This document shows positions 15,601 through 60,859 of a DNA stretch of 64,000 nucleotides, one piece after another. Within the stretch, counting starts at the first letter, position 1; each line of letters begins with the position of its first letter. This DNA is from Tethya wilhelma. Taxonomy: Eukaryota; Porifera; Demospongiae; Tethyida; Tethyidae. The position numbers and the translations under genes were made by a program. Location of the stretch: positions 1,170,369 to 1,234,368 of the forward strand of contig CAXIPT010000003.1 in NCBI GenBank assembly GCA_964030475.1, given 5' to 3'. The notes below the pieces were generated by a model. That model did no database searches. It saw only the letters and a list, made by a program, of their open reading frames with translations, and was not told the origin of the DNA.

Positions 15601-18600
15601 TCTTGGCTGGTAATCCAGTTAAGTTATATACTTGTCTTTTATAGTTTACTCCATTATTTCAGTAGCCAAGTGATTAGCTATAATTATATTATAATGTACT
15701 GAGAAATTTGAACCAACTATGCAGTAATCTAGCTACGGTATTATTGTACAGATCATCGCAACACAATGCTGAAAATCCATAATTATAAGTGATCAAGAAT
15801 AAAAATGAAGTAGTCATGTGCCGAAATTGAGACCATGCCTTGTTTCAATACTTTTTACCGCACTGCCCATTCCTACACTACTTATTTTTTTGAAATTTTT
15901 ACTACTTGTATATATATATAATGGTGGTTTATAGTAGTAAACCTCAGTTAACATGGAACTGGTCTAATTGTCTGCCTTGAGTCAGAGGTCAGTACTTAGG
16001 TAAACCTCGTGGTCACTATAGGCATGGGCAATAGTCAAGTGCGTTCTCTCTACGTGTATTTTGCCAGTGAGTCTGTTTCTTGTCAATAGCCTGTCGATTT
16101 CTCACCCATCCCGCCCAAAACCCCCTTTACCTATAGTTTCTCTCCATATTGTGGGTGCCTAGGTGGGGTGTAAACTTGGGGGGTACCATTGCTGCATCAT
16201 GGCAGAAAAACATGACCGCTGATCAGGTGGGGCAAGCCCAGTGGAGTGCATCGTGGCACTGATAACATGGCATCTTGGCCAACTCTGACAATCCCTGGCA
16301 CCATGGCCACTGAGAATTATCCCTCCGGTACCCTGCCTAGCACCCGCCTTTCTTGGCCCAAAACAGCCTGTGCTACATTCCCTTCACGTAGTTGTTTGCG
16401 GCTCCATGAATTAAGGAGCATGTTAATATAGCTAGCTAAATTCAGCAAGATCAGGTTTAAGAACTTGTCCCGTGTGCTTTGCCTAGGTATGAGTAAGCTT
16501 GATTATTAATAATGTTACTGTGCAGGCATTACATCGATCAGCTGGCCAGTATAGTGCTCGCTTAGATATTATTGTGCACACGGTGCCTACTGAAAGTTAG
16601 TGGGGCTGACCGATATCATGACAATTAGGGTGTTATTATAATGTATTTGAGGCTCTAGTTAAGCTGTTACAATGTCAATTGAATTCTGAGAAAGAAAGAT
16701 ATCCTTGAAAAATTCTGGGACTCAGCTGGGAATCGAACCCAAGACCTCCTGATTGCTAGTCAGCTCTAGGTGCTCTTATATACCACCAAGCCACTAGCTG
16801 CATGAGTGCCTGTGGCATTGGAACATATTTAGTATTGTGATTTTTGCCAAATCAACCTCAAAAAACAAAGTTTAAGCTATCCAAAAATTTAACATGGTAC
16901 AGGTGACCAAAATATGGATTACTTATAAACATTGTAGTTTCACTTTTAACTGTAGATTCTCCTATGCTTTTTGTTAACTGACCATGACAGTATTTCTGTT
17001 GTAGTTTCTCTGCTAGGCCTCTCTTGTTGACAGTAGATACTCTCAAACACTCTAAAATGGACTCCCAACAGATTGGTGTCTTGGTATTCCCATCCAACCA
17101 GTATCCCAGCATCTCACTCAGTCGGCGATCAACAGATGGAAACATGTCTTCAATAGAACTGAGTTGAGGAAGTGGAATTTCCAATTGAACTCCAATTTCA
17201 TGCCACTTGTCTCTGGCTGGGGCCAGTTCTGTAACCAATGTTGCCAGATCCAAACCTGAAACATGCATGCAAGTTATTCTTTTAGTTGAGTGACTAAGAC
17301 CGAAATCAATGCACCATTCTCGTGAACAAACAAACAGTTCTGTGTTACCATGCAAGGGTCCAGGGTTTCTCTCCACATCTCCAGCTAGTAGGAGGAGCAT
17401 TGCCAGTAGCACTAGAGAGGACAGTTGGAGGAAGAATGAGACCACTACCATCATGAGACCAACAGTTGTCATAGTTTTCTTTTCTTGCTTCATACAGTTT
17501 CCATTCTTAACGCAATTTAAAATCACTGCAAATTATGTGAAATGTAAAGAACTGCAATGATGACTGTTGTGTAGAAAAACTTACATTCTGTGGACTTCAA
17601 GTCCTTCATTGACAGGGTAGCATACATGTTGCTAGTCTCTGGATCATAAATGACCTCACAGTCAGGTCCAAAGGTCAGCCAGAACAGGTCCATATGAGGT
17701 AGCTGCTGAGTCAGCATCCAGTGATGGTTGTCTTTGAGTCTTGAACTCCTGTGTTCTTGAACACTAAAGAACACCACTGTTATCACCATGGCAACATAGA
17801 GGAGGACAGTCAAAGAAGCAAATTGTAGTTGGCCCAAAGCACCATCATTTATGGTCAATTCTTGAGGAGACAAGATTACACAAGAATGGTTTTAAATCCC
17901 ATCATACGTACGGTAGTACGTATAGTAGGAATGGGCCGACTGTCCCATAGACACAATACAAAATGTTCATGCTCATACTACTCAAAGAGAAAGATAGCAA
18001 AGCCTTAAAACACATTTAGAGCCTCCCTTATATATAGACAATTTTCACAATGTATAAACACACAAATACACAGAAACTTCTTACAGCACTCTGGAGAAAG
18101 CACTGGCGAGAAGCCATAACAATGCAATTTTGTTTTCTTCCTAACTGACAAACTTGAACGCAATTTCCAGACAAACAGAAGGCATTAAGCCAATTTTGAC
18201 TGGATAGTGAGACTTCATTTCATCCAAAGTACGCCCTTTTGTACTCGTTTGGTGCCTAAAACTCAACAAATCAAATCTAAGCAGCTATTGAAACTCTGGT
18301 ATAAATGAAAGCACCAAGGTGCATAAGCCTCGGCACACTCACTGAACTAGCATGCAGAACTAAATATGTATGCATGACTTATGACCAGCACCATCCACTG
18401 CATGAGAGGTGTAGTCTGGTGTATCCAGACTATGAGAGGTGTCAGCCTAGCAAAATCAGTTCTAGCCTGCTGCAATTACTAAGGATGTACTGAGCTGTGG
18501 TCAGCCTAGTTATAATATTTAAATCTGTGTTTAGAATATACTTTTGACGCTTGTAGTACTTGCAAACTGAATGCTCAGCTGTAGCCAGCTACTGAGTATC

Positions 18601-47700: not shown

Positions 47701-49173
47701 ATTAGCATGAAAAGATCTTTCAAATGATACCTATTTTCATATAGGTTTGATTTTGACCCAAATTTGAGAAAAATCCCTGAATTTTATCAAAATTGGCCAT
47801 TTTAGCTTTTGATACAAAACCTAATGAAATAATATCATTTGAAATCTCTCTTCATGCCAATCGCAATAGTCCAAGTCTTAGCTTCTAAAGACTCTCACAG
47901 CCTGAGATATTGTTGATCAAAGTTGTCATAGATATCTAGCATTGTTTTTTTATACATCAATAAATTGTTTCTTTCATTTCCAGGGGGACATGTCTCGGTT
48001 CTACATCAACCCTCTCTCTGACAGTTGCACCCGATCTCTCCTCTCCCCCATCTCCATCGAGGGGATGGTTGCCGGGGTGATGAGTAGAACCATGGTTACC
48101 AAGCAACACGGACCCACCATCAATGTGCAGAGAATATCACCAGAGTAAGCTCCTAGTAATAGCATAATAGACACTGTAATGTTTCCTTGGGAAGGGATGT
48201 CAAGCTTACTCTGTTGTCAATCATATGCTGTAACAGTTTCATTTTTGTTCTCTCTCTCTCTCTCTCTCTCTCTCCCTCTCTCTTCAGTGATCGTACCTCT
48301 AAGGTAGTATATCCTCAGATAGCCTCTCAGATCTTAGCAAAGGAGGCCAAGGAGTTGAGGTGTCACTCCAGAGCGTGGAAGGTCAACCTCCTTGGGGAGG
48401 GAGCAGATGATGCTGGGGGAGTCTTTGATGAGACCATAGCACAGATGTGTGAGGTAGGTTGGTGTACATGTCTAGGAAAAACTTTTAAATACTTAAGTGC
48501 TGTGCATACCTCCTAACCTTGTATGGCCATTAATGGGTTTGTTGACCAATGTTTGTTAGGTAGGGATGCTTCTTGAGATCCTTGATAAAAGTGTTTAGCT
48601 CTCCTGTCATTCTTTGATAGCCTTTACCGTAATATTTTCCTATTCTTCACTTTACAAACAAAGGAGCTAGAAAAAGGAGTGGTGAAGCTGCTAATCCAGA
48701 CTCCCAATGCTCGCAACAAGTGTGGCTTCAACACAGATCGTTTCGTCTTTGATCCCAGCTGTAGCTCTCCACGAGACATCAAACACTTGAAGTTCCTAGG
48801 AGTGTTGTTTGGAGTTGCCATGAGAACCAAGAAGCCTCTTGACCTTCACCTGGCCCAGCCAATGTGGAAGCTACTGGCTGGAATATCACTCACCACTGAC
48901 GACCTGGAAGAGGTAGGGGTTACATAGGGAATGTGTGCATGGATAGAGGGGAGACCCTGTAATTATTAGCACTTATAGTTGCTTACTATGGTATTGGTGA
49001 GCATCAATTGGAGAGTATAGTTTTGTGCACTAAAGCTATACATTGACTTAGTCAAAGTTTATTATTGTTTTCCCTTGCTGTAGATTGATCTGATGTTTGT
49101 TCAAACTATGAACAGTATAAGAGACATCCACAAGAGTGGCATCAGAGAAGAGGAGTTCTCAGAGGTACTGTAT

Positions 49174-49225
<52 letters not shown>

Positions 49226-50461
49226 CACATGCACAAAATTTGTTTATTAGTTTGTTGTTAATTTTTTTTTGTTTTTTGTTTTTGTTGTTTTTTATTCGTC
49301 TACATGAACATATCTCTCGATCCTTTCTCTCTTAAACTTTTAATCTCTTTTTAATACAGATGATTCCCATTGAGTTGTTTGAGGCTCAGAGTATCTCTGG
49401 TCAGTTTGTCCCCATTGTCCCAGGTGGGAGTGGCATCAAGCTCACCTATCAGAACAGGAAGGAGTACGTTGAGAGGGCACTTCAGTTCAGACTGCACGAA
49501 TTAGACCTACAGGTATTGCCATGAATGATGTATATGTATCTCTTATTTGGTGGACTAGATATATAGCTATCTATGTTATGGTCTGGTAAACTGTGAATAA
49601 AATCTTGAAAGCTTCTACTATTACATTTGCATGAATTCTGATGCCATAGTGCATGGACTGGTTACTGTTAAAACACTTTTTTAAAATCATATCAGCTTGA
49701 CAATCTCTCTCTCTCTCTCCCTCCCCCCTCAGGTATCAGCGGTCCGTGAGGGTATGTCCACCATTGTCCCAGTTCCTCTTCTCTCTCTCTTCTCTGCTAA
49801 GATGTTGGAGAGTGCTGTGTGTGGGAGTGAGGAGGTTGACCTACAGATGCTCAAGAAGGTTGTCAGGTAATGCAACTAACAATCATCACAAGCTTTGAAT
49901 ATGAAACAATCACTACATTTAGTAATACTGTTTTGGTAGTCTAAAATTTTTTACATTTTATACTTGTATATACTATATCAAAAACTTAGCCTATATGGCT
50001 ATTTTTTTTTTTTTTCATTTGTGCTTCTATTGGGTGTGAAGGTATCGTGTGTTTTATATATGGAATTGTCATTGTCCCCATTCATGCAGGTATCGTGATG
50101 GTACTGCTGAAGGTGACAGTGTCATTCAGTGGTTGTGGCAAACTCTAGACTCCTTCACCAACGAAGAGAGGATCCTCTTCCTGAGGTTTGTGTCTGGTCG
50201 TTCCCGACTACCACTGAGAGTCAGTGAAATACCACAGAGATTCCAAATATCAGTCTGCACTCAGGTAAGGATGGAGAGTGGGAACTAAGTTATCATGCGA
50301 TGGTTCCAAAATCTATAAGGTCTACATGAAAATTTTTCTCAAGCAAAGGATCTGTTCCTTCCTTTGTTTCTTATTCTACACGTACCCTTTGGCTATATCT
50401 TGGTTACCCCATGCCTCTTCATTTTTGAAGCTTCATCTCATTATTATTTACTCTCCCTCTT

Positions 50462-50498
<37 letters not shown>

Positions 50499-50700
50499 GT
50501 CCAATGACTCCCTTCCGACTGCTCAAACTTGTTTCTTTCAACTTCGTGTTCCAAGCTACTCCTCTCAGGAGATCTTAGCAGAGAGACTTCGCTACGCCAT
50601 TAGAAACTGTCGCAGTATTGACATGGACAACTACATGCTGAGGAGAAGTGGCAGTGACTATTATGATGACTCAGACTATGACATCTATGACTCAGATTAA
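6603..50700 (+). CDS. HERC1: HERC1-like giant HECT E3 ubiquitin ligase (5' partial, about 54 exons)
   Basis: Exons with consistent GT-AG borders and phases give about 3,200 codons. The order matches animal HERC1 after its first RCC1 domain: helical region, SPRY, conserved [14 protein letters not shown] block, UBA, low-complexity linker, WD40 repeats, second RCC1-like domain, C-terminal HECT. HERC1 is a cytoplasmic/Golgi-associated E3 that takes ubiquitin from an E2 onto its HECT cysteine; its RCC1 domains bind small GTPases or clathrin in vertebrates. Vertebrate HERC1 is about 4,860 residues, so about a third (N-terminus plus first RCC1 domain) is missing here. The first visible exon has a splice acceptor, so the start is elsewhere. 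Two exons are duplicated beside gaps (34105-35736; 44263-45154), and one 18-kb intron holds other genes. Exons are given in the block entries. Confidence 0.92.
6873..6952 (+). repeat. tRNA-like sequence (SINE head or tRNA pseudogene)
   Basis: TGGCTTAGTGG resembles a polymerase III A box. GGGTTTGATTCC, about 40 bases on, resembles a B box. A T-rich run follows. The anticodon arm does not fold cleanly, so a working tRNA is unlikely. It lies in a HERC1 intron. Confidence 0.45.
8542..8655 (-). repeat. inverted copy of 6382-6496 next to gap 8541
   Basis: Reverse complement of the segment upstream of the first HERC1 exon, ending within a few bases of the next HERC1 coding exon. It could be a genuine inverted duplication or a chimeric contig end. 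Confidence 0.8.
9285..9552 (+). mobile_element. tRNA-derived SINE with A-rich tail
   Basis: The tRNA-like head has an A-box-like TGGCCTGGTGG and a perfect B box GGTTCGAGTCC at 9346-9356. A body with the motif CTTCGGAGGGGATGTT follows, then an A-rich tail (9519-9552) interrupted by C. The body motif resembles central domains shared by several invertebrate SINEs (recollection, not a search). It is inserted in a HERC1 intron, same strand. Confidence 0.72.
11028..11268. mobile_element. foldback MITE, same family as 47651-47920
   Basis: Imperfect inverted arms: GTATCATTACAATCAGCATGAAGAGAGC at one end pairs loosely with GCTCTCTTCGTGCTGATTTCATTGGTACC at the other. The arms and the interior phrases AAAATGGCC and TTTGAAAGCTC match the element in the HERC1 intron at 47651-47920. 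Confidence 0.55.
12318..12523. mobile_element. 206-bp MITE with perfect 24-bp TIRs and TA target duplication
   Basis: The ends are CCGTATAGCTCCAAATTTTC and its exact inverse, continuing GTGG for 24 bp in all. TA flanks both sides. A duplicate of the surrounding intron at 61061-61080 lacks the element and has a single TA, which fixes the borders. The target and ends suggest mobilisation by a Tc1/mariner-type transposase; no transposase is encoded. Confidence 0.9.
12824..13076. mobile_element. possible foldback MITE
   Basis: CCATCTGGTTTTGAGAATGC near 12830 is mirrored by GCATTCTCAAACCAGATGG near 13055-13072, giving about 20-bp terminal inverted repeats. Target duplication not clear. Confidence 0.45.
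13077..14423. other. HERC1 intron sequence without recognised gene
   Basis: AT-rich. Two minus-strand open frames (13061-13363 and 14022-14255) resemble no family I know and have no splice or repeat context that would support them. A lone MITE-like end (ACCGTAAATCGCAAAATTTTCG) lies near 13779. Confidence 0.4.
14424..14780. mobile_element. 357-bp non-autonomous element, TIRs and 7-bp target duplication
   Basis: The left end TAGCGATGTCAGACCTC and the inverse of the right end match at 16 of 17 bases. The direct repeat ATAGTGA flanks both sides (14417-14423 and 14781-14787). No coding capacity. Target length suggests a hAT-like or related superfamily. Confidence 0.78.
14866..15300. repeat. dispersed repeat, copy 1 (copy 2 at 17898-18310)
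   Basis: The first about 75 bases (ATCATACGTACGGTAGTACG, then AATGGGCCGA and GTCCCATAGACACAATACAA) match copy 2 closely. Later blocks (GCACTCGTAGAGAGCGCTAG, then GAAGCCA) match more weakly. Contains a short ACTT tandem run near 15107-15125. Confidence 0.65.
15485..15908. mobile_element. foldback element with about 105-bp inverted arms
   Basis: 15485-15594 (CAAGTAGTAAAAATTTC through ATTTCGGCACATGACTACTTC) is repeated inverted at 15804-15908 almost perfectly, around a 200-bp spacer. Single-arm relatives occur at 19065-19130 and near 6243. No clear target duplication. Confidence 0.8.
16716..16800 (-). repeat. tRNA-like sequence (SINE head or tRNA pseudogene)
   Basis: On the minus strand, TGGCTTGGTGG (A-box-like) is followed by GGGTTCGATTCC (B box). 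Between them, a seven-base loop CTAGCAA sits on a four-pair stem and would read anticodon AGC. The acceptor stem does not pair, so a functional tRNA-Ala is unlikely. Confidence 0.45.
16983..17860 (-). CDS. partial transmembrane-2A-Death-domain gene (paralogue of 50996-58431)
   Basis: Three minus-strand exons with matching phase-1 junctions: 17585-17860, 17349-17525, 16983-17255. Exon 1 carries a membrane helix ([16 protein letters not shown]) and a conserved domain ([28 protein letters not shown]). Exon 2 carries a Leu-rich helix ending in the 2A motif [14 protein letters not shown]. Exon 3 is a Death domain ([34 protein letters not shown]). Its first helix exon, first Death domain, linker and ankyrin exons have no counterpart nearby, and repeats flank it. 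It is either a broken duplicate or a short gene whose last exon reads through to a stop near 16858. It lies inside a HERC1 intron on the opposite strand. Confidence 0.78.
17898..18310. repeat. dispersed repeat, copy 2 of 14866-15300
   Basis: Strong match at the start (CATCATACGTACGGTAGTAC, then AGGAATGGGCCGACTGTCCC), then patchy matches. It occupies the place where exon 1 of the Death gene paralogue would be expected. Confidence 0.6.
18311..19200. other. gene-free intron sequence with repeat remnants
   Basis: No coding exon recognised. An ACAGAC/AC microsatellite lies near 18993-19018, and a single arm of the foldback family at 19065-19130. It ends at the gap at 19201. Confidence 0.5.
19202..20150 (-). 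CDS. beta-helix multipass membrane protein A, N-terminal part (cut by gap)
   Basis: Open from a likely start at 20150 ([10 protein letters not shown]; an upstream in-frame ATG at 20201 is possible) to the N at 19201. It has a signal peptide and the domain shared with the intact gene at 20990-24307: [31 protein letters not shown], then beta-helix coils [10 protein letters not shown] and [12 protein letters not shown]. Many N-glycosylation sequons point to an extracellular location. The C-terminal membrane region is missing because of the gap, so whether the gene is intact cannot be told. Confidence 0.72.
20990..24307 (-). CDS. beta-helix ectodomain, multipass membrane protein B (intact, 1,105 codons)
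   Basis: Single uninterrupted frame from ATG at 24307 to TAA at 20990. Residues 1-23 are a signal peptide. About 40-410 is an extracellular region ending in right-handed beta-helix coils (repeated [33 protein letters not shown] patterns). About 415-690 is rich in cysteine ([47 protein letters not shown]), like EGF/ephrin-receptor-type modules. From residue 696 there are about 8-10 membrane helices ([60 protein letters not shown]). A roughly 70-residue basic then acidic tail follows. I recall similar unnamed proteins in sponges and cnidarians; function is unknown, and a surface receptor or adhesion role is inference. Three other copies lie in the window. Confidence 0.85.
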   Translation of the reverse strand: MSRWILYKTVAVLATFAVYTESAAIKSVNYTGEKQVIVVTPDNKTQCPSVKCYTFEELITMQDLQMETARWLEIKFLPGRHFVREASTNQRIQQHLHVRKKYYVELSELKVESTAAPVIDDKRIRFSMTEINYLNVTGLTFKRMQRIYATGCEQITIKNILFLGSVIAATKSTSVHITNTTVLPIELIEVTSNSFVPTSIWISTSKEAIFNNLICGALVVLRRIKTVKFQEYVTIRDRNGAALQVYESKVHFDVNSLTIISNNTYLTEVQETAIVHIFEKSHILLNENSTVKFQNNMASGCGGMTLEGKSHLTFYNNSTLIFTGNTGEGNGGALALYQMSTILFRKDTEIQFINNTAGKKGGAIYIHDSNYIRSGKPKVSISGLCPSPGLQTDVKSIFFINNTATIAGNEIYGGWIDWPNKCELQHFLSFQSSRMNDLSMISSNPVRVCMCTNSTPDCNITNYNTSLYPGQTLKLEAVAVGQRFGTVPSTILAEYMQKSIGKFEQGQNTQKVGRNCSPLQYTVLSSNSLEKINLQTDKTLPIPTIYCHNRCYKNRTRQLNERLQIPLLVLLFSNFTISIELLECPLGFLPLDNKCTCHPKLVKSDVTCNESNYWIHQPRTIWINATTEHILHNTKYGILVHTNCPFDYCKRNNSINLKNPQDQCDYDRSLILCGACRNNFSHVFGTSRCKKCSNLWVLLIVPTFILAGILIVAFLIILDLTVSIGTINGLIFYANILRANQAVFFPTKQANTFEFLNVFIAWLNLDLGVETCFYDGLDAYTKTWLQFLFPLYIWLLVSLIIVSSHYSSTVSRWSGTNAVQVLATLFLLSYVKLLRLIITVFLSTTITYPDGYTRRVWLYDGNIDFLQGKHVPLFIAALLTLVILTLPYTTTLTTIQCLQRHKSCKRALFWVHKFKPIFDAHTGPYKSKHRYWTGLLLLVRVALLLVFTINFSGDPSINLLAITISVLCLSMNFQFIGGPYRSKMINLLELSFYFNTIALSTSTIYRINTESNSTAVTTISTSIAFIAFILIVIYHATERITETRRGARLKHSIKERVMACVRQSTPTTFTIILRGQQATLTDTVSHSSIELKEPLLADVVQVKQN
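24308..25576. other. intergenic region between beta-helix genes B and C
   Basis: AT-rich, no coding frame recognised. It contains the foldback element at about 24919-25250 and otherwise presumably the promoter of gene B. Confidence 0.5.
24919..25250. mobile_element. possible foldback MITE
   Basis: TGCCGCCCGGCTACGAAAAATG at the left is mirrored by CATTTTCGTAGCCGGAGACGGCA at the right. A nested inverted pair GACTGGAAACG / CGTTTCCAGTC lies inside. Ends TTAGCC and GGTTAA are weakly complementary. Confidence 0.5.
25577..30112 (-). pseudogene. beta-helix multipass membrane protein C, disrupted by frameshifts and a transposon
   Basis: Collinear with gene B across its whole length, but broken. The ectodomain frame (start about 30112, [10 protein letters not shown]) runs to about 28740, where a CA-repeat expansion shifts it. 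Further shifts lie near 28570, 28350, 28090, 27525 and 27212 (a 4-base ATGC insertion). An 1.1-kb foldback element (about 25888-27030) splits the last membrane helices. The final exon piece 25577-25887 keeps the tail ending ADVVQVKKD. The first 450 codons remain open, so a truncated secreted product cannot be excluded, but the membrane receptor is lost. Confidence 0.85.
25888..27030. mobile_element. foldback transposon with about 445-bp inverted arms
   Basis: Arms 25888-26333 and 26590-27030 are inverted copies at roughly 90 percent identity by eye. The ends read GAGTAAGTAATCTATTG / CAATAGATTACTTACTC, flanked by TATA. Comparison with gene B (CTGTATATTGTGGAGGTTGAG, uninterrupted) fixes the insertion point. 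No transposase frame in the 250-bp spacer. Confidence 0.88.
30487..31388 (+). other. HERC1: HERC1 exons, SPRY domain
   Basis: Exons 30487-30756 and 31071-31388. The first follows exon 11969-12081 in phase across an 18.4-kb intron (CAK then [15 protein letters not shown]). The pair encodes a SPRY/B30.2-type domain: [70 protein letters not shown] domains bind protein partners, and the position in the chain fits vertebrate HERC1. Confidence 0.88.
31520..32319 (-). CDS. orphan minus-strand exons between two assembly gaps
   Basis: Exons 32166-32319 ([20 protein letters not shown], then [17 protein letters not shown]) and 31990-32093 ([20 protein letters not shown]) have GT-AG borders and fit in phase. 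A third candidate at about 31520-31606 ([18 protein letters not shown]) runs into the gap and does not fit in phase directly. I do not recognise the family. The piece is bounded by gaps at 31519 and 32769-32781, so it may be a contig wrongly placed inside a HERC1 intron or a real nested gene fragment. Confidence 0.5.
32336..32409. repeat. (AC)n microsatellite
   Basis: Almost uninterrupted CA/AC dinucleotides. Antisense GTG frames across it are artefacts. Confidence 0.95.
32742..32868. repeat. (AC)n microsatellite containing a 13-N gap
   Basis: AC repeats flank N at 32769-32781. The repeat end supplies the polypyrimidine-poor acceptor CACACACAG for the next HERC1 exon. Confidence 0.95.
32869..36182 (+). 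other. HERC1: HERC1 exons, middle conserved block
   Basis: Exons 32869-33042, 33173-33301, 33644-33831, 34105-34291, 34530-34677, 36015-36182, with an extra copy of two exons at 35164-35350 and 35589-35736. [19 protein letters not shown] matches the HERC1 block after [15 protein letters not shown] followed by [11 protein letters not shown] matches the segment before UBA. The extra exon pair totals 335 bases and cannot follow the first pair in frame (exon 34677 ends in phase 1, exon 35164 needs phase 2), so only one copy can be used. Confidence 0.85.
33857..35973 (+). repeat. HERC1: tandem duplication of 1,058 bp across gap 34915
   Basis: 33857-34914 and 34916-35973 appear identical, offset 1,059, separated by a single N. 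Most likely the two overlapping ends of adjacent contigs left unmerged. Confidence 0.92.
36557..37195 (+). other. HERC1: HERC1 exons, UBA domain
   Basis: Exons 36557-36824 and 37102-37195. After a Pro/Ser/Glu-rich stretch, [20 protein letters not shown] continues into [16 protein letters not shown]. This is the MGF-loop and three-helix pattern of a ubiquitin-associated domain at the same place as in vertebrate HERC1. A CA repeat (37079-37098) precedes the second exon. Confidence 0.85.
37409..39275 (+). other. HERC1: HERC1 exons, charged linker and helical block before WD40
   Basis: Exons 37409-37540 (Arg/Gln/Glu-rich, likely coiled coil), 37767-37872 and the long 38259-39275. The long exon matches HERC1 upstream of its WD40 repeats: [87 protein letters not shown]. 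It contains a basic run [13 protein letters not shown] that could act as a nuclear or membrane-contact signal (inference). Confidence 0.85.
39401..43170 (+). other. HERC1: HERC1 exons, WD40 repeat region
   Basis: Exons 39401-39450, 39528-39574, 39714-39891, 40159-40291, 40455-40577, 40727-40857, 41003-41071, 41170-41285, 41546-41783, 42019-42117, 42350-42523, 42895-43170. WD-like units include [10 protein letters not shown] ... [31 protein letters not shown], and [20 protein letters not shown] followed by SVRIWDLM. The last exons match the HERC1 linker before the second RCC1 domain ([40 protein letters not shown]). WD repeats form a propeller scaffold for partners or substrates. Confidence 0.85.
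40407..40446. repeat. (CT)n microsatellite
   Basis: TCTCTC run forming the polypyrimidine tract before a HERC1 exon. A T-rich run of about 30 bases lies at 41483-41513 in a nearby intron. Confidence 0.85.
44263..45154 (+). repeat. HERC1: duplicated RCC1 exon around gap 44657
   Basis: Exons 44263-44459 and 44958-45154 are both 197 bp, differ at several mostly silent bases (protein change Asp to Glu in AVTDTG/AVTETG), and share flanking intron motifs that have diverged more. A gap and a (GA)n run (44658-44720) lie between. Both need entry phase 1 and exit phase 0, so they cannot be spliced together in frame. Confidence 0.85.
45918..46146. mobile_element. 229-bp MITE with CCGTATAGCCGG ends, TA target
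   Basis: Terminal inverted repeats CCGTATAGCCGGAAAATTTG / CAAATTTTCCGGCTATACGG, flanked by TA. The interior is full of GGCGGAT / ATCCGCC inverted motifs. A longer flank word TATTACACAGATTT occurs on both sides (near 45891 and 46147). It lies in a HERC1 intron. Confidence 0.85.
47036..47225. mobile_element. decayed MITE of the GGCGATTTTAAATTTGG type
   Basis: Words such as TTGGCGATTTTAAATTTGG, ACTGTTTGGCAATTTG and CAAATTTACCC recur in 63590-63725. They resemble a degraded relative of the element at 45918-46146. Ends not resolved. Confidence 0.45.
47651..47920. mobile_element. foldback MITE with imperfect about 90-bp arms
   Basis: ATCTCAGGCT ... GATTAGCATGAAAAGATCTTTC at the left pairs with the inverse of GAAATCTCTCTTCATGCCAATC ... 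AGCCTGAGATAT at the right. Related to 11028-11268; both sit in HERC1 introns. Confidence 0.65.
47984..50700 (+). other. HERC1: HERC1 exons, HECT catalytic domain and stop
   Basis: Exons 47984-48144, 48288-48453, 48664-48912, 49084-49164, 49360-49512, 49733-49866, 50090-50264, 50500-50700. HECT landmarks: [25 protein letters not shown]-like [47 protein letters not shown], and [16 protein letters not shown] with the predicted ubiquitin-accepting cysteine codon at 50530-50532. The C-terminus [19 protein letters not shown] is HERC1-like and ends in an acidic Asp/Tyr tail. All catalytic parts look intact. An AATAAA lies at 50766-50771. Confidence 0.93.
49175..49223. repeat. (CA)n microsatellite
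   Basis: About 49 bases of CA dinucleotides in a HERC1 intron. Confidence 0.95.
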
Positions 50701-50995: not shown

Positions 50996-53900
50996 TTAAG
51001 TGACTAGATATTGAAAAAGGTGTAGGTGCCCAAAATGTTCTGCATAGCTGAGAGGAGTCATCCCAAACATATCAACTTTATTTGGATCATAGTCGTAAGG
51101 CTTTGAAGTGAGGAGTTTCACAACTTTAAGTTGTCCACCCATAGCAGCAAGATGGAGAGGAGTTTGATTGTGATTGTTAGTCACTGAAGGACTACACTTT
51201 ACATCATCAATCAAATACTTTACTATATCCATACGATCTGCTTTTGCTGCAAAGTGAAGAGGAGTGTTACCATTGGGTCCTGGAATATTTGGATGACACT
51301 TGAAGTTTTTGATGAAGACTTTTACTAAATTAGTGTGACCACCATTGGTTGCACAGTGAAGAGGTGTGATACCTGATCCATCCCTACAGGAAGGATCGCA
51401 ACCCTTTGAAACTAGGAGTTTCACAACTTCTAGTTGCCCGAACATAGCAGCATGATGAAGAGGTGTTTCACTAGTAGTGTTAGTCACTGAAGGGCTGCAC
51501 TTTGCATCATCAATCAAATACTTTACTATATCAATATGACCCATTTGTGCTGCAACATGAAGTGGAGTGTTACCCACAGGTCCTGGTATACAAGGATCGC
51601 ACTTTAACTGTTTAATGAAGAACGTGACTATATTCAAGTAACCCTTAGCAGCTGCACCATGAAGAGGAGTGACACCATTAATGTTTCTACAAAATGGGTC
51701 ACAACCTTTATCCAAACTGAGTAACTTGACAGCTTGTAGTTTTCCATTCATGGCAGCAATCGAAAGAGGAGTGACTTTATGTTTAGTCTCTTGTGAGGGG
51801 TTACAGTTGGCAATGTCAATTAGATAGTTTATTAGTTCTACATGTTCATATTTAGCTGCATAATGAAGAGGAGTCCATCCATTTTGACCAAGAACATTAG
51901 GGTCACACTCTAACTCGGTGATGAAGAATTTGACAACATTTAAGTGACCATAACGTGAAGCAAAGTGAAGAGGAGTGTCACTATCAACTCTAGCAGATGG
52001 ATTCCAACCTTTGTCTACTAGTAACTTAACAGCATCCAAATGACCATTTCCAGCCGCCAAGTGAAGTGGAGTAGCTTTATCTCTAGTCTCTTGTGAGGGG
52101 TTACACTTTGCAACATTGATCAACAATTTCATTACATTCACATGACCATCCAGTGCAGCAAAGTGAAGAGGAGTTCTGTTGTCCGTATTTTTATGACATG
52201 GATCACACCCTTTGTCTATTAGCAACTGGACAGCTTCTAGTTGACCATTAGCAGCAGCAATGTGAAGAGGAGTTGATTTATCACTAATCTCTAGTGATGG
52301 GTTACATTTTGCAACATTGATTAAATATTTTATCACGTCTACATGACCTTTTTGCGCTGCATAATGAAGAAGAGTCCAACCATTTTCCTTAGGAATGTTT
52401 GGATCACTTTCTAAGTTGGTGATAAAGAATTCCACTAAACTTGAGTGACCATAAAGTCTTGCATTGTCAAGAGGAGTGGTATTATTTATGTCTCTACATA
52501 ATAGATCACAACCTTTGTCTACTAATAGCTTGACAGCTTCTAATTGACCTTTTCCAGCAGCAATGTGAAGAGAAGTAGCTTTATCACTAGTCTCTTGTGA
52601 GGGGTTACATTTTGCAACATCAATCAAATATTTCATTACATTTACATGACCACCTTGAGCTGCAAAATGGAGAGGTGTCCAACTTCTTCGGCCAGTAATG
52701 TTTGGATCACACTTTAACTCTGTAACAAAGAATTTTACTATATTCTCACGACCATGCAAAGCAGCAAAATGAAGAGGAGTTAAACCATCACCATTTCTAC
52801 AAGATGAATCATAACCGCAGTCCAGTAATAGCTTGATGGCTTTGAGTTGACCATTTCCAGCAGCAATGTGAAGTATATTACTATTTGTTCGTAAAGGGTT
52901 ACATTTTGCAATGTCTATTAAATACTTCATTACATCCACATGTCCACCTTGAGCTGCATAATGAAGAGGTGTCCAATTTTTTCCTCCTATAATGTTTGGA
53001 TCACATTTTAAGTCTGTAACAAAGAATTTCACTATGTTCTTGTGGCCATTTTCTGCAGCGAAGTGAAGAGGAGTATTACCGTCATTATTTTTATCAGAAG
53101 GATCACAACCTTTGTCTAGTAGTAACTTGACAACTTCTAGGTGTCCATTTCCAGCAGCAATGTGAAGACTATTCTCTTTTAAGGGGTTACATTTTGCGAT
53201 GTCAATCAAATACTTCATTACATCCACATGACCGCCTTGAGCTGCATAATGAAGAAGTGTCCAACCTTTTTGTCCAGTAATGTTTGGATCACACTTTAAC
53301 TCTGTAGTGTAGAATTCTACTACATTCGCATGACCTTTTACTGCAGCAAAGTGTAGAGGAGCCATGCCATTAATATCTTTACAGAATGGATCACAACCTT
53401 TGCGTCGTAGTAACTTGACGGCTTCGAGTTGACCATGAGCAGCAGCAACATGAAGAGGAGTGACTTTGGAACGATTCTCTTGTGAAGGGCTACATTTTCC
53501 ACTGACAATTAAGTACTCCACTACATCCACATGTCCACCTTGAGCTGCACAATGAATTGGCATCAAATCTTTTTCTCCAGTAATGTTTGGATCACATTTT
53601 AATACTGAAATGAAGAATTTTACTATGTTTAAGTGACCTTTGCCAGAAGCAAGATGAAAAGGAGTGTTCCCAACGTTATTTCTACTAGCTATGTTACACC
53701 CTCTGTCTAATAGCAACTTGACAGCTTCTAGGTGCCCACTTCTAGCAGCTAGATGAAGAGAAGTTTGTCCCTCATCACTTTTTTGAGAAGGATTACATTT
53801 CGCACTGTCAATCAAATATTTCACAGTGTCCACGTGTCCCTCCTGGGCTGCACAATGAAGAGGTGTGAAACCAACTTTTCCTGAAATGTTGGGCTCACAG

Positions 53901-54532
53901 TTTAGCTTTTCAATGATAAACTTTACAATGTCAGTGTGACCTTTAAACGAAGCATAATGGAGAGATGTAAGCTCAAGTTCAGTTTTGTCAGTAATAATCT
54001 CATTGACATCATAATACTTCTCAAATTCTTTAGCTAGGTACTTGAATACGTCAAGATTTCCTCCAATACAAACAGCATGTAGTGGAGTGATACGGTAATA
54101 ACTTTTACCCTTATACATCGGATCAACATTTTGTTCAGATATTAGATATTTTACAATGTCAAGGTGTCCAAGCCGAGCTGCTAGGTGCAGTGGAGTTTCA
54201 CCAAAATTATTGATGGCAGAAGGACTAAACTGTTCAATTTCAACAAAACACTTCAGAACATCAAGGTGATGACCTTTAACAGCACAATGAAGAGCTGTGT
54301 TTCCCGACTGATCCTTTTGTAATGGACTGATTGAGGTACCTTGAGTATCCATTAGAATCTTAACCTGATCTAGTTTTCCATCAAGAGCTGCAATGTGTAA
54401 CGGAGTAGCTATTCCACGAGTTGTAGTCTGTTCCTGATCAAGTTGCTGTCGCTGAGCTTCATCGTAACTTTGGGTAGGTTCAAAGTCTACCTCAAGGTCG
54501 TAAGGATCAATGTCCATATCCTGATCTATATC
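50996..54532 (-). repeat. ankyrin array with about 300-bp higher-order period
   Basis: About 33 ankyrin units in one exon. In the middle they cycle as triplets: GWTPLHYAAQGGHVDVMKYL, then TPLHIAAGNGQLEAVKLLLD, then TPLHFAALHGRENIVKFFVT. Equivalent points such as the codons for ELKCDPNITG recur about every 290-303 bases (near 52706, 53001, 53290, 53593). This suggests expansion by three-repeat blocks. Confidence 0.85.
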
Positions 54533-57500
54533 CTACATATGAAATATGCATGTATTTGTATATGTCATTATAGTGATTTTACCAGACTATAAATATAATG
54601 ACATATAAGTATAATGTTATACATGTACATGACAATTATCATGACAAGTGTATACCGTACCTGTTTTGGCTCTGTTGATATACTTGTACCTTTTCCTGAA
54701 TCATGTACACTAGGTGAACCACCAGGTCCACCATCTGGTTTATCATCTCCATGGTGACCATCATCATCACCATCCTCATCCTGGTGACGAGGATATTGGT
54801 AGGCACCAGCAGAGATTTTAATAACTCCAAGATCTGCTAGATCTTCTTCTTGCTTAGAAGAGAGAGGGAATGTAATCTTATAGACTTGTTGAGGGAGTTG
54901 AAGTGTTAACTCTATACATCCTCGTCTAATAGACTTGAGTATTGGTAGCCAGTTTTCCAGATTCAAAATTTGAGCGATTGCTTTTACTAATTCTGTTAAC
55001 TGATCAAGTCCACATCCTTCATATTTTTTAGGATGCAATTTAACAAGGAATGAGGGCCAACCTTGAATAGTTACTCCCAAGTCTGGGGGACATTTAAACA
55101 CTGTTCGCTTTGCATACATCTTGAACTCTTTTTCATAATCTGTAAGGGCTTGCCTTAGTTCCGCTACTCCTTCTTCATTGACAAGACGTGTAATGATCAC
55201 TTCCACCAAACAATAATTAAAGAATGAAGAGTAATCACTTATTATTTTCATGGCATTTTCTATTGACTGTGCTGTTTGAAGTTGATCCTGAAGCTCTGCT
55301 TGTTGATCACACTGGCTATTAGGACGTAGCCAATTAACTTTTCTAAACTGAGATACACAAAACATAATATACTCAACAGTCTTTTTCTGCTTATTTAAAA
55401 AAAATTCTGTGATGTTAATCAGATTCTGGAATTTTTTAGTCATATCATCAAATTCCATACTAAGCTGAACTTTAATTAATTCTGCTTCTTCGGGATCCTC
55501 ACTGTAACTAGGTAAATCATCAAGGTAAGGAAAGCTGTATTTTGCTTTTTTGGGGGCTGGAAGACTTTTATCACTATCTTTAGTGCCACACGCATCATAA
55601 TTAGAATCAGCTGCACACAGAGCAATAAAAAAAGGATAATGGCATACAATTAATTGTTTATTGTTTACTTAAGCACAAAGCCTGCTTGACATCCAATTAA
55701 TTAAGCATTTTTAATTGTATGCAGCTGCAGTCACTGGGTCTTTTAAACTAACCATTGCAGTGTTTTTCCCATAGTTCTTCTGCTAGTCCTCTCTTGCTAA
55801 CAGTAGATGCTCTCAAACACTCTAAAATGGACTCCCAACAGATTGGTGTCTTGGTGTTGCCATCCAACCAGTATCCCAGCATCTCACTCAGTCGACGATC
55901 AACAGATGGAAACATGTCTTCAATAGAACTGAGTTGAGAGAGTGGAATTTCCAACTGAACTCCAATTTCATGCCACTTGTCTTTCGCTGGGCTGAGTGCT
56001 TCAGTTAATATCGCCAATTCCAAACCTGTAAGTTAGACAAACAACCAAATTATTTAATAATTATATGAAACTGTAAAATGCGAGTTACATTAGACTAAAC
56101 TAGCATGTATGACATTACAAGCCTTGTCGTCCTCACCATGAATTAAAGGTGCCCACAAACTTACCACTCTTATTCCCATGAAGAGGAGCTACATTGGCAG
56201 TAACAGACCTCACAGTCACTGAATCAGAGTCAAAGGATATTGGTCTTCTTCTCTTCTGAGGAAAATCTCTGGTAGCTACATGTATGAGAGCAAAGAATTA
56301 ACAGCATGCACGAATGCTAACACAGAACCTAACAAAAAAATCATATACTGAAATAATAATGATTGTAGATTTGCAGACAAAATAAATTAATAATACTTTA
56401 CTTACAGGATGACTGTAGACTTAAATCCTGCAACTTTAGATCTTGTAACTGGCAAATGTCTGTAGCAATTCCATTTTGACCAATTGACTGCAGAGCAACT
56501 ACTAAACTCTCCCAAGATCGTGGACCACTTAGTTTGGTTAGAACATCATCTTCCGCTCTAAGCCAGGCAGCAACCATGTCTCTTGGTAGTTCCTTCATAT
56601 ATTGTAGTTTGGAAAGATACAATCCTAGAGCTTGTCCTAATTCAATGATATGCTCTTTTTCCATAGCTTTGAGACACTGACACACAGCCAAATGATCCTT
56701 ATTAAATTCAAGCTCTAGAGATATAATAACATGCAGAGGTAAATAACAATGTTGTCATCTTGCAAGTTTGTGATTATACTATTCACCATGAAAGGGTCCA
56801 GGGTTTCTCTCCACATCTCCAGCTAGTAGGAGGAGCATTGCCAGTAGCACTAGAGAGGACAGTTGGAGGAAGAATGAGACCACTCCCATCATGAGATCAC
56901 GGGCAGTGGGAGGAGTCTGGTCATCTCGTTTTGCAGAGGAACATGATGAGGTACAAACACACCTCAAGACAACTGGAGACAATAGAAAAAACTTCATCAA
57001 AGAAACAGTACAACATTGTACATGTATGTATAAAAAAGACACACAAATACATATTTGAAAACTAAAATTCTCTTATCTTTACAAACAATCCCAACTAAAA
57101 ATAAGGTCCAGTAAAGGACTGATCTCAATGTTTGCTCCGGCAAATATATAGCTAGTATCACTGGTAAAAGACCGAGTCACTTAAATGCTTATAGCCTTGA
57201 GAACTAGGAGTGTTACCGAGTATAGCGGGAAATTTTTGTATGGTGCAAATTTTCGTATTTTTCGTATGCCGTTCGAATATACGAAAATTAAAACTGCGAA
57301 AATTTAACTTCCGCATTATGCATATACGAGCGCGCGCCGCGTATACGAAATTTAAAACTACAAAAAAATTTTCTGGTGCATTTTTAACAATTTATACGAA
57401 ATTTTGAACTACGAATATTTCCCGCTATACAGTACTTTGAAAGCCATAGAGGTCTAACCAAGAATGTACTTTAAATATTACAAATTGGCAGGTCGATACA

Positions 57501-58431
57501 AAGATTAAGACTATTTTGCATTGGGGGAGGGCCTGGGTATATATGAGGCTATATTCATGCGCCTGATAAATGCACACGTGACTGGAGGACCATGCACACA
57601 CACTTAAGTTAGGTGCCCATTTTCTGCACTCACAATCACACAAACATATGTACACACATGCATGCATGGAGGAGCATCATAATCATTAAACACATGACTC
57701 GATCAAGCACTACAATATCCGAGACAGTAACAATGGTCCCGACTTACATTCTGTGGAGTTCAAGTCCTTCATTGTCAGGGTAGCATACACATTGCCAGTC
57801 TGTGGGTCATAAATGACCTCACAATCAGGTCCAAAGGTCAACCAGAACAGGTCTAGATGAGGTAGCTGCTGAGTTAGCATCCAGTGATGGTTGTCTTTGA
57901 GTCTTGAACTCCTGTGTTCTTCAATACCAAAGAACATCACTATTATCACCATGGCAACATAGAGGAGGACACTCAGAACAGAAAACAGGGGTCGGCTCAA
58001 CAGATGGTTCATGAAAGAAGAGCTGAGATCAGCAGTAATTCCTTGTGGGAGTAGATTCAGTATACACAAAAAAATGAATACATCATACATGAATAAACTC
58101 AACACTGCAGTTTTTTTGATACAACTTAAAACTTTGGTGGACATAATTCTTTTTTATGCCTACCTCCATTGATGTATGGGCTGGTATTCAGTGTGTTAGC
58201 TCCTGGGCCATTGACCAGGTACATCATGATAGCCCAATACACTCTGTATAGCAGTGGTAGACACAGTAATACCATGGCAGGGTAGTAGCCCTTCCAGTCG
58301 CTAGATGGAGGAGGTGGAAGGTCACTAATAGGAGAAGAGGACTTGAGACTGGGTCGGGGTCTCAGCGGTGATCCTTTCCCGGCGTTCAGAGAACCCGTTA
58401 CCCCGCGCCAGTGCTCGGCGCTAATGGGCAT
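50996..58431 (-). CDS. three-TM / 2A / double Death-domain / ankyrin-repeat protein, eight exons
   Basis: Exons 58164-58431, 57748-58041, 56787-56972, 56406-56714, 56165-56275, 55753-56025, 54661-55610, 50996-54532. They sum to 5,928 bases (1,975 codons plus stop); the first six introns are phase 1 and the last phase 0. The start is the first in-frame ATG. TM helices lie near residues 55-80, 105-125 and 217-237; [11 protein letters not shown] and [17 protein letters not shown] form a conserved domain between. Residues 235-247 read [12 protein letters not shown], a canonical 2A motif predicted to break translation after Gly246. Death-like domains lie at about 250-350 (IIELGQALGLYLS, AAWLRAED, SWESLVVAL) and 390-480 ([21 protein letters not shown]). 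The region 481-796 is unrecognised, with an acidic/His end. About 33 ankyrin repeats fill 830-1975. A scaffold in innate or death signalling is inference. Confidence 0.87.
56803..56842 (-). other. 2A 'stop-carry-on' recoding motif (DNA for [14 protein letters not shown])
   Basis: Matches the DxExNPG/P consensus exactly, with the favoured upstream LLxLAG context. In known 2A sequences the ribosome fails to join Gly to Pro and continues, giving two proteins. The hydrophobic Leu-rich helix immediately before it would occupy the exit tunnel. Identical motif DNA lies at 17365-17404. Confidence 0.85.
57216..57432. mobile_element. 217-bp MITE, TA target, TATAGCGGG ends
   Basis: Ends CCGAGTATAGCGGGAAA and inverse of TTTCCCGCTATACAG, flanked by TA. 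The interior is rich in ACGAAAATT / AATTTTCGT. Same family as 1570-1741. It sits in the intron between exons 2 and 3 of the 2A gene. Confidence 0.8.
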
Positions 58432-58945: not shown

Positions 58946-60859
58946 AGTAGAGGAAAGTCAACCTCCTTGGGGAGAGAGCAGATGATGATGGGGAGTCTTT
59001 GATGAGACCATAGCACACACAGTGTGTGAGCTAGGTATAGGTGGTCAGTGTTTCTAATATGATATGAATACATTACTTTACTTCATGCAGTTCAATAAAC
59101 ATCTCCTATTTATCCAGCACTCTTAAGTCTTAAAAAGCAATAATATTCTATAGAGCTCTTATGACTTTACTTTGCATTAACATTACACAATATCCCATCC
59201 ACAGGAGCTAGAAAAAGGAGTTGTGAAGCTGCTCATCCAGACTCCCAATGCTCACAACAAGTGTGGCTTCAACACAGATCGTTTCGTCTTTGATCCCAGC
59301 TGTAGCTCTCCACAAGACATCAAACACTTGAAGTTCCTAGGAGTGTTGTTTGGAGTTGCCATGAGAACCAAGAAGCCTCTTGACCTTCACCTGGCCCAGC
59401 CAATGTGGAAGCTACTGGCTGGAATATCACTCACCACTGACGATCTGGAAGAGGTAGGGAATAGATAGGGAATGGGTGGATAGAGGGGAGACCCTGTAAT
59501 TATTAGCATGCATCAGAGTTAGTATTAATTTTGACTATATAGTATTTTGATGAGCATCAATTGGGATAACAAATAAATTTTGTTATTATGTCAAGTTATC
59601 TGTAGGTTCAAAGTTCAACATGATTAATGGTAGTATCTCTCTCTTTCTCCCCCTCAGGTATCAGCAGTCCGTGAGGGTATGTCCACCATTGTCCCAGTTC
59701 CTCTTCTCTCTCTCTTCTCTGCTAAGATGTTGGAGAGTGCTGTGTGTGGGAGCGAGGAGGTCGACCTACAGATGCTCAAGAAGGTCGTAGATGTATTTAG
59801 TCCAGGTCATCAGGTACATGATTTTACCACTTTAACGTTTTGTAGATACCTGATCCATCTTTCTAAGATTTCGTACTTGTACCTTCATTGTATACCCATG
59901 CAAAACAGAACATTAAATTTTGTGGATTACACACAATGGCATTTTCTATAAATTTGCATGAAAATTTTGACAATCCGCCTAATTTAATTCATTCCTGCTA
60001 ATATTTAGTCCTGTACGGTATGTTATGTATAGGGTTGTGTACATGTGTGCGTATCCTTGTTGCAAGCAGTGCATATGATTTTCATTCAAGGCCCTCTGTA
60101 GGTACGCAGATTTATTAAATTGTTGATCTTTACCAAACTTTTAGGCCCCTTTTATATACACGTATGCATTTTAGTATTATAAACACAAACTAAAGTATAC
60201 GGATACAGCATGCATCTACACGATACCTCCATAAATGCTTACCAAAACGTATACTTTTGTAAAGTGCAGAACTTAATTGGTAAACGAAGACAGCAGTAGG
60301 CTCGTGTGTTACTGTACAAGCAAAACACATGTAGACTTCAAAACTGTTAACTGGACTCGTGGGCCATTTTGTTGCATTTTACGGTAGCTTACAATCATCA
60401 TCTGTCTACCAAAATGTTTTTTCATCTTGCCAGTTTGGAGGCTTTTTTCCCTTGAAATCGAGAAAGCTAACTACACTCGTGACAGCTGGCAGCTCACACG
60501 TGCATTGTAACCGCATACGTGTGAACGCCCATTTTCATTTACTGTGTTCTAGTGTAAATGCCCTCTGTCGTCGTTTAGTACTAAACGCATACGTGTAAAC
60601 GAGGCCTTAATTTTTCAATTTCAGTGTTTACTAATTTGGGTCTTTGTAAACAATTGTCAATGAAGTAGAGGTTACATACTTAATATGTGTGTATATTATA
60701 GTTCTGTTGCTGTATTAATTGTACTCCGTTGTTGTACGTTGTACAAGTGTTCCTGTTGTTAGTTCTCTAAAGACTAGTCTCCTGGCTCTGCAAGTGCTGG
60801 AGGCCATCATGTCTGAGCTCTCTGAGACCACACCCAATGCACAGGACAAGTGTGCCAAG
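58946..60859 (+). pseudogene. HERC1: rearranged HERC1 exon copies
   Basis: 58946-59030 is a degraded copy of HECT exon 48288-48453 (reading-frame breaks, TGATGATGG for GATGCTGGGG). 59206-59454 is a near-identical copy of exon 48664-48912 ([20 protein letters not shown]). 59658-59786 copies exon 49733-49866, entered directly, skipping the two exons between. 60748-60859 copies the far-upstream exon 11969-12081 and is followed by a stop (GAGGAGTAG). Order and content cannot make a HERC1 protein, and the catalytic cysteine exon is absent. Intron pieces are copied too, so this is DNA-level duplication, not retroposition. Confidence 0.85.
59800..60740. other. gene-free stretch between HERC1 exon copies
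   Basis: No exon recognised. 59920-60020 holds words of the CCGCC/AATTTAATT MITE family ending CCTGTACGG-TA. The remainder is unremarkable AT-rich sequence with repeated ATACGTGTAAACG-type words near 60500-60600. Confidence 0.4.

Follow-up and report, generated by a model that had tools for sequence, protein, structure and literature searches.

A predicted StopGo/2A leader in sponge Death/TRADD-N/ankyrin genes that would yield a membrane protein and a separate cytosolic scaffold

StopGo/2A recoding is known largely from viruses, and its use by cells is described as rare (PMC12846837, Li et al. 2026). In the excerpted text of PMC11512398, cellular 2A is mentioned only as NLR proteins, with citation of the sea-urchin work, in which one NLR 2A leader was skipped at a level estimated qualitatively as ~80% (PMC4981915, Roulston et al. 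2016). Among the papers listed, none was on sponge 2A genes by title or beginning of abstract, a search that did not cover the 2025 account of 2A across eukaryotes by Rao and co-workers, where sponge cases may already be described; the "2a-like" of PMC5890393 is the ending of a gene name and was set aside. From the sponge Amphimedon, an NCOA6-clade expansion of TRADD-N proteins has been described, with one to three Death-like domains, then TRADD-N and a variable C-terminus that is commonly ankyrin (PMC8195603, Kaur et al. 2021). The gene studied here, which has a similar domain order, lies in a 64,000-nt stretch (hereafter “the window”) of Tethya wilhelma contig CAXIPT010000003.1 (GCA_964030475.1; C3:1170369-1234368). 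It begins with a membrane leader ending in the 2A motif DVERNPGP, an addition with respect to the Amphimedon paper, the main text of which makes no mention of NPGP, skipping or a signal peptide. We consider it likely that this leader is a StopGo/2A element heading Death/TRADD-N/ankyrin genes of sponge type, and predict that it keeps the membrane protein apart from a scaffold in the cytosol.

The gene occupies the minus strand from 58431 to 50996. Eight exons with GT/AG introns join into a frame of 1,975 residues with a single terminal stop, which the Gly|Pro junction of DVERNPGP splits into 246 residues up to Gly246 and 1,729 from Pro247. Both the eight phase-compatible exons encoding three helices, a 2A motif, a Death pair and ankyrin repeats, and the division into 246 and 1,729 residues, had been proposed in a preliminary description, and both were recovered when the gene was rebuilt from the sequence. 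Exon 1 (58164..58431), placed by its frame and splice sites, encodes the N-terminal motif MPISAEHWRG, a basic tail and the first transmembrane helix (TM1, ~residues 51-73). Exon 2 (57748..58041) encodes TM2 (~107-129) and then a conserved segment, ..YATLxM. Exon 3 (56787..56972), symmetric in phase (1-1), encodes TM3 (~214-240) followed by DVERNPGP; the first 23 of the 24 nt of the core lie at 56795..56817, the predicted skipping site being Gly246|Pro247. These three segments reach the hydropathy of membrane helices. Exons 4 to 8 encode two Death-type domains, then a helical and RRM-like region, then the ankyrin array. They comprise Death-fold domain 1 (DD1) in exon 4 (56406..56714), a short basic linker in exon 5 (56165..56275; symmetric, phase 1-1), Death domain 2 in exon 6 (55753..56025), a helical region and a probable RRM-like TRADD-N domain (~residues 186-272 of the exon product) in exon 7 (54661..55610), and an acidic lead-in, the ankyrin array and the stop codon in exon 8 (50996..54532). 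The array had been put at about 33 repeats; the Pfam scan counts 32 ankyrin stretches. Exons 2 to 6 are in phase 1 at both ends, a pattern typical of exchangeable exons. Exons 1 and 2 had no Pfam match above cut-off, and the exon 2 profile gave a single row against PDB (E 1.3); assignment of these exons to a known family was therefore rejected. The 24-residue segment after TM2 is strongly conserved and has no family match.

Shuffles give an expectation of 0.00 for the 2A pattern, whereas the minus strand of the window carries two identical 23-nt cores, one at 17357 and one at 56795. Across the source genome (124.6 Mb in 204 contigs), 78 exact DxExNPGP sites were found versus 0 for the reversed pattern. 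The free second residue at these sites is Val in 65 cases, Ile in 12 and Ser in 1, and among the distinct nucleotide cores (n=49) it is Val or Ile in 48/49; the 78 sites carry 14 different core octapeptides. Admitting further residues at the first position added 12 sites, versus 1 match for its reversed control, and the two of these 12 that were read directly have NVERNPGP (L043 and L049). The core of the studied gene fits the StopGo/2A consensus (D/G/C/N)(V/I)ExNPGP, is in frame with predicted coding sequence on both sides, and is adjoined upstream by LLLLAG, a Leu-rich context with Gly before the Asp. This places it in the Leu-rich class, in which an LLLLSG-like hexapeptide ending in (A/S/C)G precedes the Asp; the member of this class that was assayed in reticulocyte lysate proved active (PMC12846837). 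A chance motif was ruled out by the shuffles, the reversed-pattern count of zero and the Val/Ile bias. A chance motif or wrong gene model is hardly credible: the gene model is a prediction from sequence, but the shuffles, genome counts, frame and Val/Ile bias, as well as the Death linkage, phase and flush cores described below, speak against an accident.

Relatives of the two membrane exons are found upstream of 2A sites elsewhere in the genome. A search with exon 1 gave 32 rows, 26 of which have a same-strand 2A site within 8 kb downstream, whereas an opposite-strand 2A site within 4 kb was present in 0/32; for exon 2 the corresponding linkage within 8 kb is 18/23. Rows are not loci, a few of them being split. 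In the 12 paralogues that were read, both window copies included, the intron between exon 2 and the 2A exon fits phase 1. The exon 2 donor leaves one base, as T|GT in ten (two of them weak) and, by eye, as G|GT in two. On the acceptor side of the 2A exon, the site preceded by most pyrimidines leaves two bases in 12/12, with a tie against a site in another phase at L018 and L024. On the other side of the motif, 31 sites were read with their flanks, four of which lie within longer frames: L052, and three that content or similarity marks as LINE-type (L004, L011 and L017). For the remaining 27, the first good donor is a phase-1 GT in 22, while L002, L008, L013, L016 and L022 have, by eye, a weaker phase-1 GT no more than ten bases beyond the Pro codon; at L008 a donor with a good score comes first 35 bases further on, and in a different phase. 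As order, strand and phase are kept in the paralogues, exons 1 to 3 very probably form one gene with the Death and ankyrin exons. The earlier reading of one gene making two proteins thus holds with regard to the single gene and the maintained 2A motif, whereas skipping itself, and the equimolar products and regulated ratio proposed with it, are predictions.

Constraint on the motif was assessed within the family. When the genome was searched with the exon 3 product lacking its last ten residues, all 27 rows obtained ended flush at an intact core. In 14 of 20 aligned family sequences, pN/pS (the ratio of nonsynonymous to synonymous divergence) is 1.10 in the preceding loop, an overestimate as that loop was compared without gaps, 0.39 in TM3 and 0.08 in the AG plus core. 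These comparisons support maintenance of the 2A motif in the paralogue family; the sequence also supports the gene structure, the conserved linkage, the phase and the domain order. The constraint bears, too, on the possibility that the exon is a relic, either captured from a 2A-bearing LINE or conserved merely as a hydrophobic leader that no longer recodes. Odon and co-workers reportedly described, in 2013, 2A sequences in non-LTR retrotransposons, and such elements with endonuclease and reverse transcriptase are present in this genome (L034 and L041, the latter with a sub-threshold PHD finger; L047 is LINE-type by similarity only). However, the core is the most constrained part of the leader and is intact in every copy found without using it, so we regard a relic as very improbable. 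A retrotransposon fragment was likewise rejected, because the LINE copies share the core and a similar Leu-rich run but differ in structure: their frame runs past the core (93 codons in L004/L034, 309 in L011/L041), endonuclease and reverse transcriptase adjoin it, and no good donor follows it directly.

From these features we infer skipping, its efficiency, the topology and localization of the products, and a role in immunity or cell death. A single transcription unit would be translated beginning with the N-terminal cassette of two membrane exons and the TM3/2A exon. With Gly246 in the P site, 8-32 residues would part TM3 from the peptidyl-transferase centre, so that it would still be inside the tunnel; as the 84-residue loop before it is predicted to be cytosolic, the 2A peptide could work with no translocon pulling on it. 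Release of a 246-residue, three-helix membrane protein would follow, and the ribosome would resume at Pro247, yielding a leaderless Death-Death-TRADD-N-ankyrin protein of 1,729 residues in the cytosol, near the endoplasmic reticulum (ER). If skipping failed, the fused protein would enter the secretory pathway. There are six Lys/Arg residues in the N-terminus, one in loop 1, and basic residues right after TM2, so that by the positive-inside rule TM3 would run from cytosol to lumen and the Death/ankyrin part of an unskipped fusion would end up extracellular or in the lumen of the ER. The tethered cytosolic fusion that the preliminary description had proposed for failed skipping is therefore probably wrong. 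This would agree with the sea-urchin case, in which fusions left unskipped enter the exocytic route (PMC4981915).

Alternatively, skipping might be deliberately partial and regulated, by stress or eEF2, with the fused fraction working at the membrane or in the lumen. Partial partitioning of the sea-urchin leader has been described and stress control proposed (PMC4981915). The variety of core octapeptides in the genome could also serve to tune efficiency. We nevertheless find such a dual-targeting switch quite unlikely. The predicted topology puts the Death domains in the lumen, where known Death-domain partners are not expected; the core varies little within the family, which suits a fixed, high efficiency; and regulation is without support among the results here.

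Several points weigh against a StopGo/2A leader with three helices. The support comes from genomic sequence, and the paralogues are related copies, not independent events. Synonymous divergence is low in the TM3/2A stretch (pS 0.20, versus 0.52 upstream, in 14 paralogues), so part of the conservation may stem from gene conversion or from constraint on the nucleotides. The TRADD-N match of exon 7 lies below Pfam’s cut-off. Against the predicted topology, loop 2 counts 8 basic and 12 acidic residues over its full length, and each loop carries a glycosylation sequon. ER translocation can inhibit 2A in some constructs, and residues 28-48 upstream, when in the translocon, were argued by De Felipe et al. 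to be able to block it (PMC2978324), although a cytosolic 84-residue loop at that distance would avoid such a block. No 2A site lies within 8 kb of 6/32 exon 1 rows and 5/23 exon 2 rows. Conversely, a recognized exon 1 or 2 lies within 5 kb upstream of 26 of the 90 2A sites used for linkage (78 exact and 12 wider-pattern sites, retroelement copies included) and none at 64/90; some other classes of site carry different leaders. Finally, 8/14 paralogues share a Met at one position immediately ahead of TM3, and 12/14 have a Met among the first 16 residues of the 35-residue stretch that leads to the core, which makes a shorter product starting in exon 3 possible.

The last two observations would suit a leader of the sea-urchin style, in which transcripts would usually begin a little ahead of exon 3 and translation at the Met before TM3, giving a short N-terminal signal sequence, exons 1 and 2 being a separate gene or an alternative first part. 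So would the ~775-bp length of intron 2, the 26 N-terminal residues of sea-urchin NLR 2A leaders (PMC4981915), and the class of L005, L006 and L010, whose leaders look short and could be of this kind. However, L009 and L019 have no Met in the stretch concerned, and the complementary exon 2 and 2A-exon phases (12/12) and the linkage of exon 1 to the 2A exon (26/32) disfavour both a separate upstream gene and a start inside exon 3. We therefore hold the short leader to be unlikely, and prefer the three-helix leader for the studied gene.

With regard to the downstream part, exon 4 has the six helices of a Death fold, and its sequence profile found no Death chain in PDB. Exon 6 matches Pfam Death with E 0.0015, under cut-off, and matches FADD in a profile search. 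Exon 5 matched only at the studied locus among the fetched loci compared. Exon 7 includes the region that had been called unrecognized; it has indeed no Pfam match above cut-off, but probably holds a TRADD-N domain, defined here by an RRM-like fold with a tiny-Ser/Cys motif at the beta2-beta3 turn. By fold, TRADD-N came at rank 27, tied with other RRM-like folds; Foldseek gave no match with E <0.001 for either structure model, and the exon 7 sequence gave two rows against PDB (E 0.74 and 1.4), neither of them TRADD. As in the sponge NCOA6 clade, Death-like domains, within the range of one to three, come first and the variable C-terminus is of the frequent ankyrin type.

Genome-wide, the cassette is not confined to this gene, which widens the scope of the earlier description from a lone gene to a family of gene heads. 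Relatives of the exon 4 and exon 6 Death domains gave at least 150 and at least 142 rows, respectively, counts of large families being lower bounds. Among the matches listed, a same-strand Death exon lies within 3 kb downstream of 51/90 2A sites, as compared to 1 for same-strand upstream, 0 for opposite-strand downstream and 1 for opposite-strand upstream positions; the Pfam Death listing, which gave at least 150 rows and omits the studied gene’s own Death domains, was kept out of this count. A NACHT domain, counted from 102 NACHT rows with a reach of 10 kb, lies downstream at 7/90 sites (2, 0 and 0 for the other three positions). Seen from the domains, a 2A site lies within 3 kb upstream in 42/142 and 12/150 Death rows among the matches listed, and within 10 kb upstream in 6/102 NACHT rows, so the majority of Death and NACHT rows are without the cassette. 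Ten long frames in the fetched loci, whose transcript link to the 2A exon is putative, were scanned with Pfam. They contain ankyrin repeats (L046, L048), NACHT (L036, and L043 together with a sub-threshold LRR), COR-A (L049, and under cut-off in L038 with ZU5), a sub-threshold Roc (L050), TPR (L037) and RIG-I_C-RD (L031); in a second scan L049 also showed ankyrin and Death, and L031 a Death match under the threshold, and the frames of L042 (1,088 aa) and L052 (499 aa) had no Pfam match. These results lead us to favour, by a narrow measure, a broader idea: that an animal lineage may have turned StopGo into a general gene-head cassette for cytosolic death and immune sensors, a symmetric phase-1 2A exon spreading by duplication and exon shuffling before Death genes whose C-termini are of the ankyrin, NACHT, ROC/COR, TPR or RIG-I type. 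Each locus would then give a matched membrane protein and sensor.

Individual loci show further arrangements. At L031:3000-7166 the 2A core is followed by the Death domain noted above, sub-threshold at E 0.0028; next come a region resembling exon 7 (E 1e-9 within the small set of fetched loci) and the frame with the RIG-I C-terminal domain, so that this is possibly a RIG-I-like gene with a 2A leader. L035 and L036 have a candidate leader of ~20 residues that starts MNFSY, ends DVETNPGP and precedes an exon that is Death-like by eye; with NACHT in L036, this possible leader is the closest match to the sea-urchin arrangement. Two consecutive same-strand 2A motifs occur at L049:3001-3724 and L043:3001-3870, 701 and 847 bp apart, DVERNPGP or DVETNPGP being followed by NVERNPGP. 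A phase-1 GT follows both N-type cores, and the best acceptor fits in L049 but only the second-best in L043; at least these two loci could make three products each. L052:3-1499 is a single frame of 499 residues with hydrophobic segments, SGDVETNPGP and then a Cys/His-rich region (CPMCWTECKKPSRSHIIP). Four DVETNPGP cores lie within 17 kb on C13. The single-exon leader of L042 (MPLWSVEDWRVRI...DIETNPGP) finds the public proteins P0004-P0006, all three with an intact core, and an opening motif, MPxxSxExWR, is common to exon 1 and the leaders of L038 and L042.

The second core in the window (17357..17379, minus strand) belongs to a shorter paralogue in the region 16858-17891, consisting of exon 2 (~17586-17870), the 2A exon and Death domain 2. 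The scan made there, which did not extend to ankyrin, matched neither Death domain 1 nor exons 1 and 7; the copy may represent either a short gene or a fragment. Plus-strand HECT ubiquitin-ligase exons flank the studied gene at 48589-50700 and 59181-60000 (Pfam HECT E 2e-7 and 1e-7), and their near-identity, judged by eye, suggests a segmental duplication around the gene. Among public proteins, P0001 matches exon 1, and P0002 and P0003 match the 2A exon. In the source genome the best-scoring matches are 55% identical for P0001 (no row >70%) and 77% for P0002 (no row >82%), identities low enough to point to another assembly or to a part missing from the source genome.

If the proposed separation is true, the annotation of sponge immune genes could change. 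Transmembrane NLR architectures have been predicted in sponges (PMC12909245), and NLR-type proteins annotated as membrane-bound may in part be separated pairs, that is, two proteins. Tens of conserved, Death-linked copies would offer a natural system for asking why cells use StopGo and whether skipping is a switch. Direct tests become possible by reporter translation, N-terminal proteomics and localization of both halves.

In comparison with known systems, the cassette shares with viral StopGo/2A the canonical octapeptide and the Leu-rich hexapeptide ending in (A/S/C)G before the Asp, although viral sites separate the parts of polyproteins (PMC12846837). With the NLR leaders of Strongylocentrotus purpuratus it shares a D(V/I)ExNPGP core adjoined by a hydrophobic tract, with 2A right after the hydrophobic stretch that heads Death-containing immune genes (PMC4981915). 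The sea-urchin leaders, however, are 26 residues long and precede Death/NACHT/LRR proteins (PMC4981915), whereas in the gene studied here 246 residues, forming a three-helix leader in several phase-1 exons, precede the site, and Death-Death-TRADD-N-ankyrin follows in place of NACHT and LRR; elsewhere in this genome NACHT, COR, TPR and RIG-I-type frames are also downstream of 2A sites. The best reading of these likenesses and differences is that the sponge cassette would be related in kind to the sea-urchin NLR 2A leaders, with a multi-helix membrane module and a wider range of partners.

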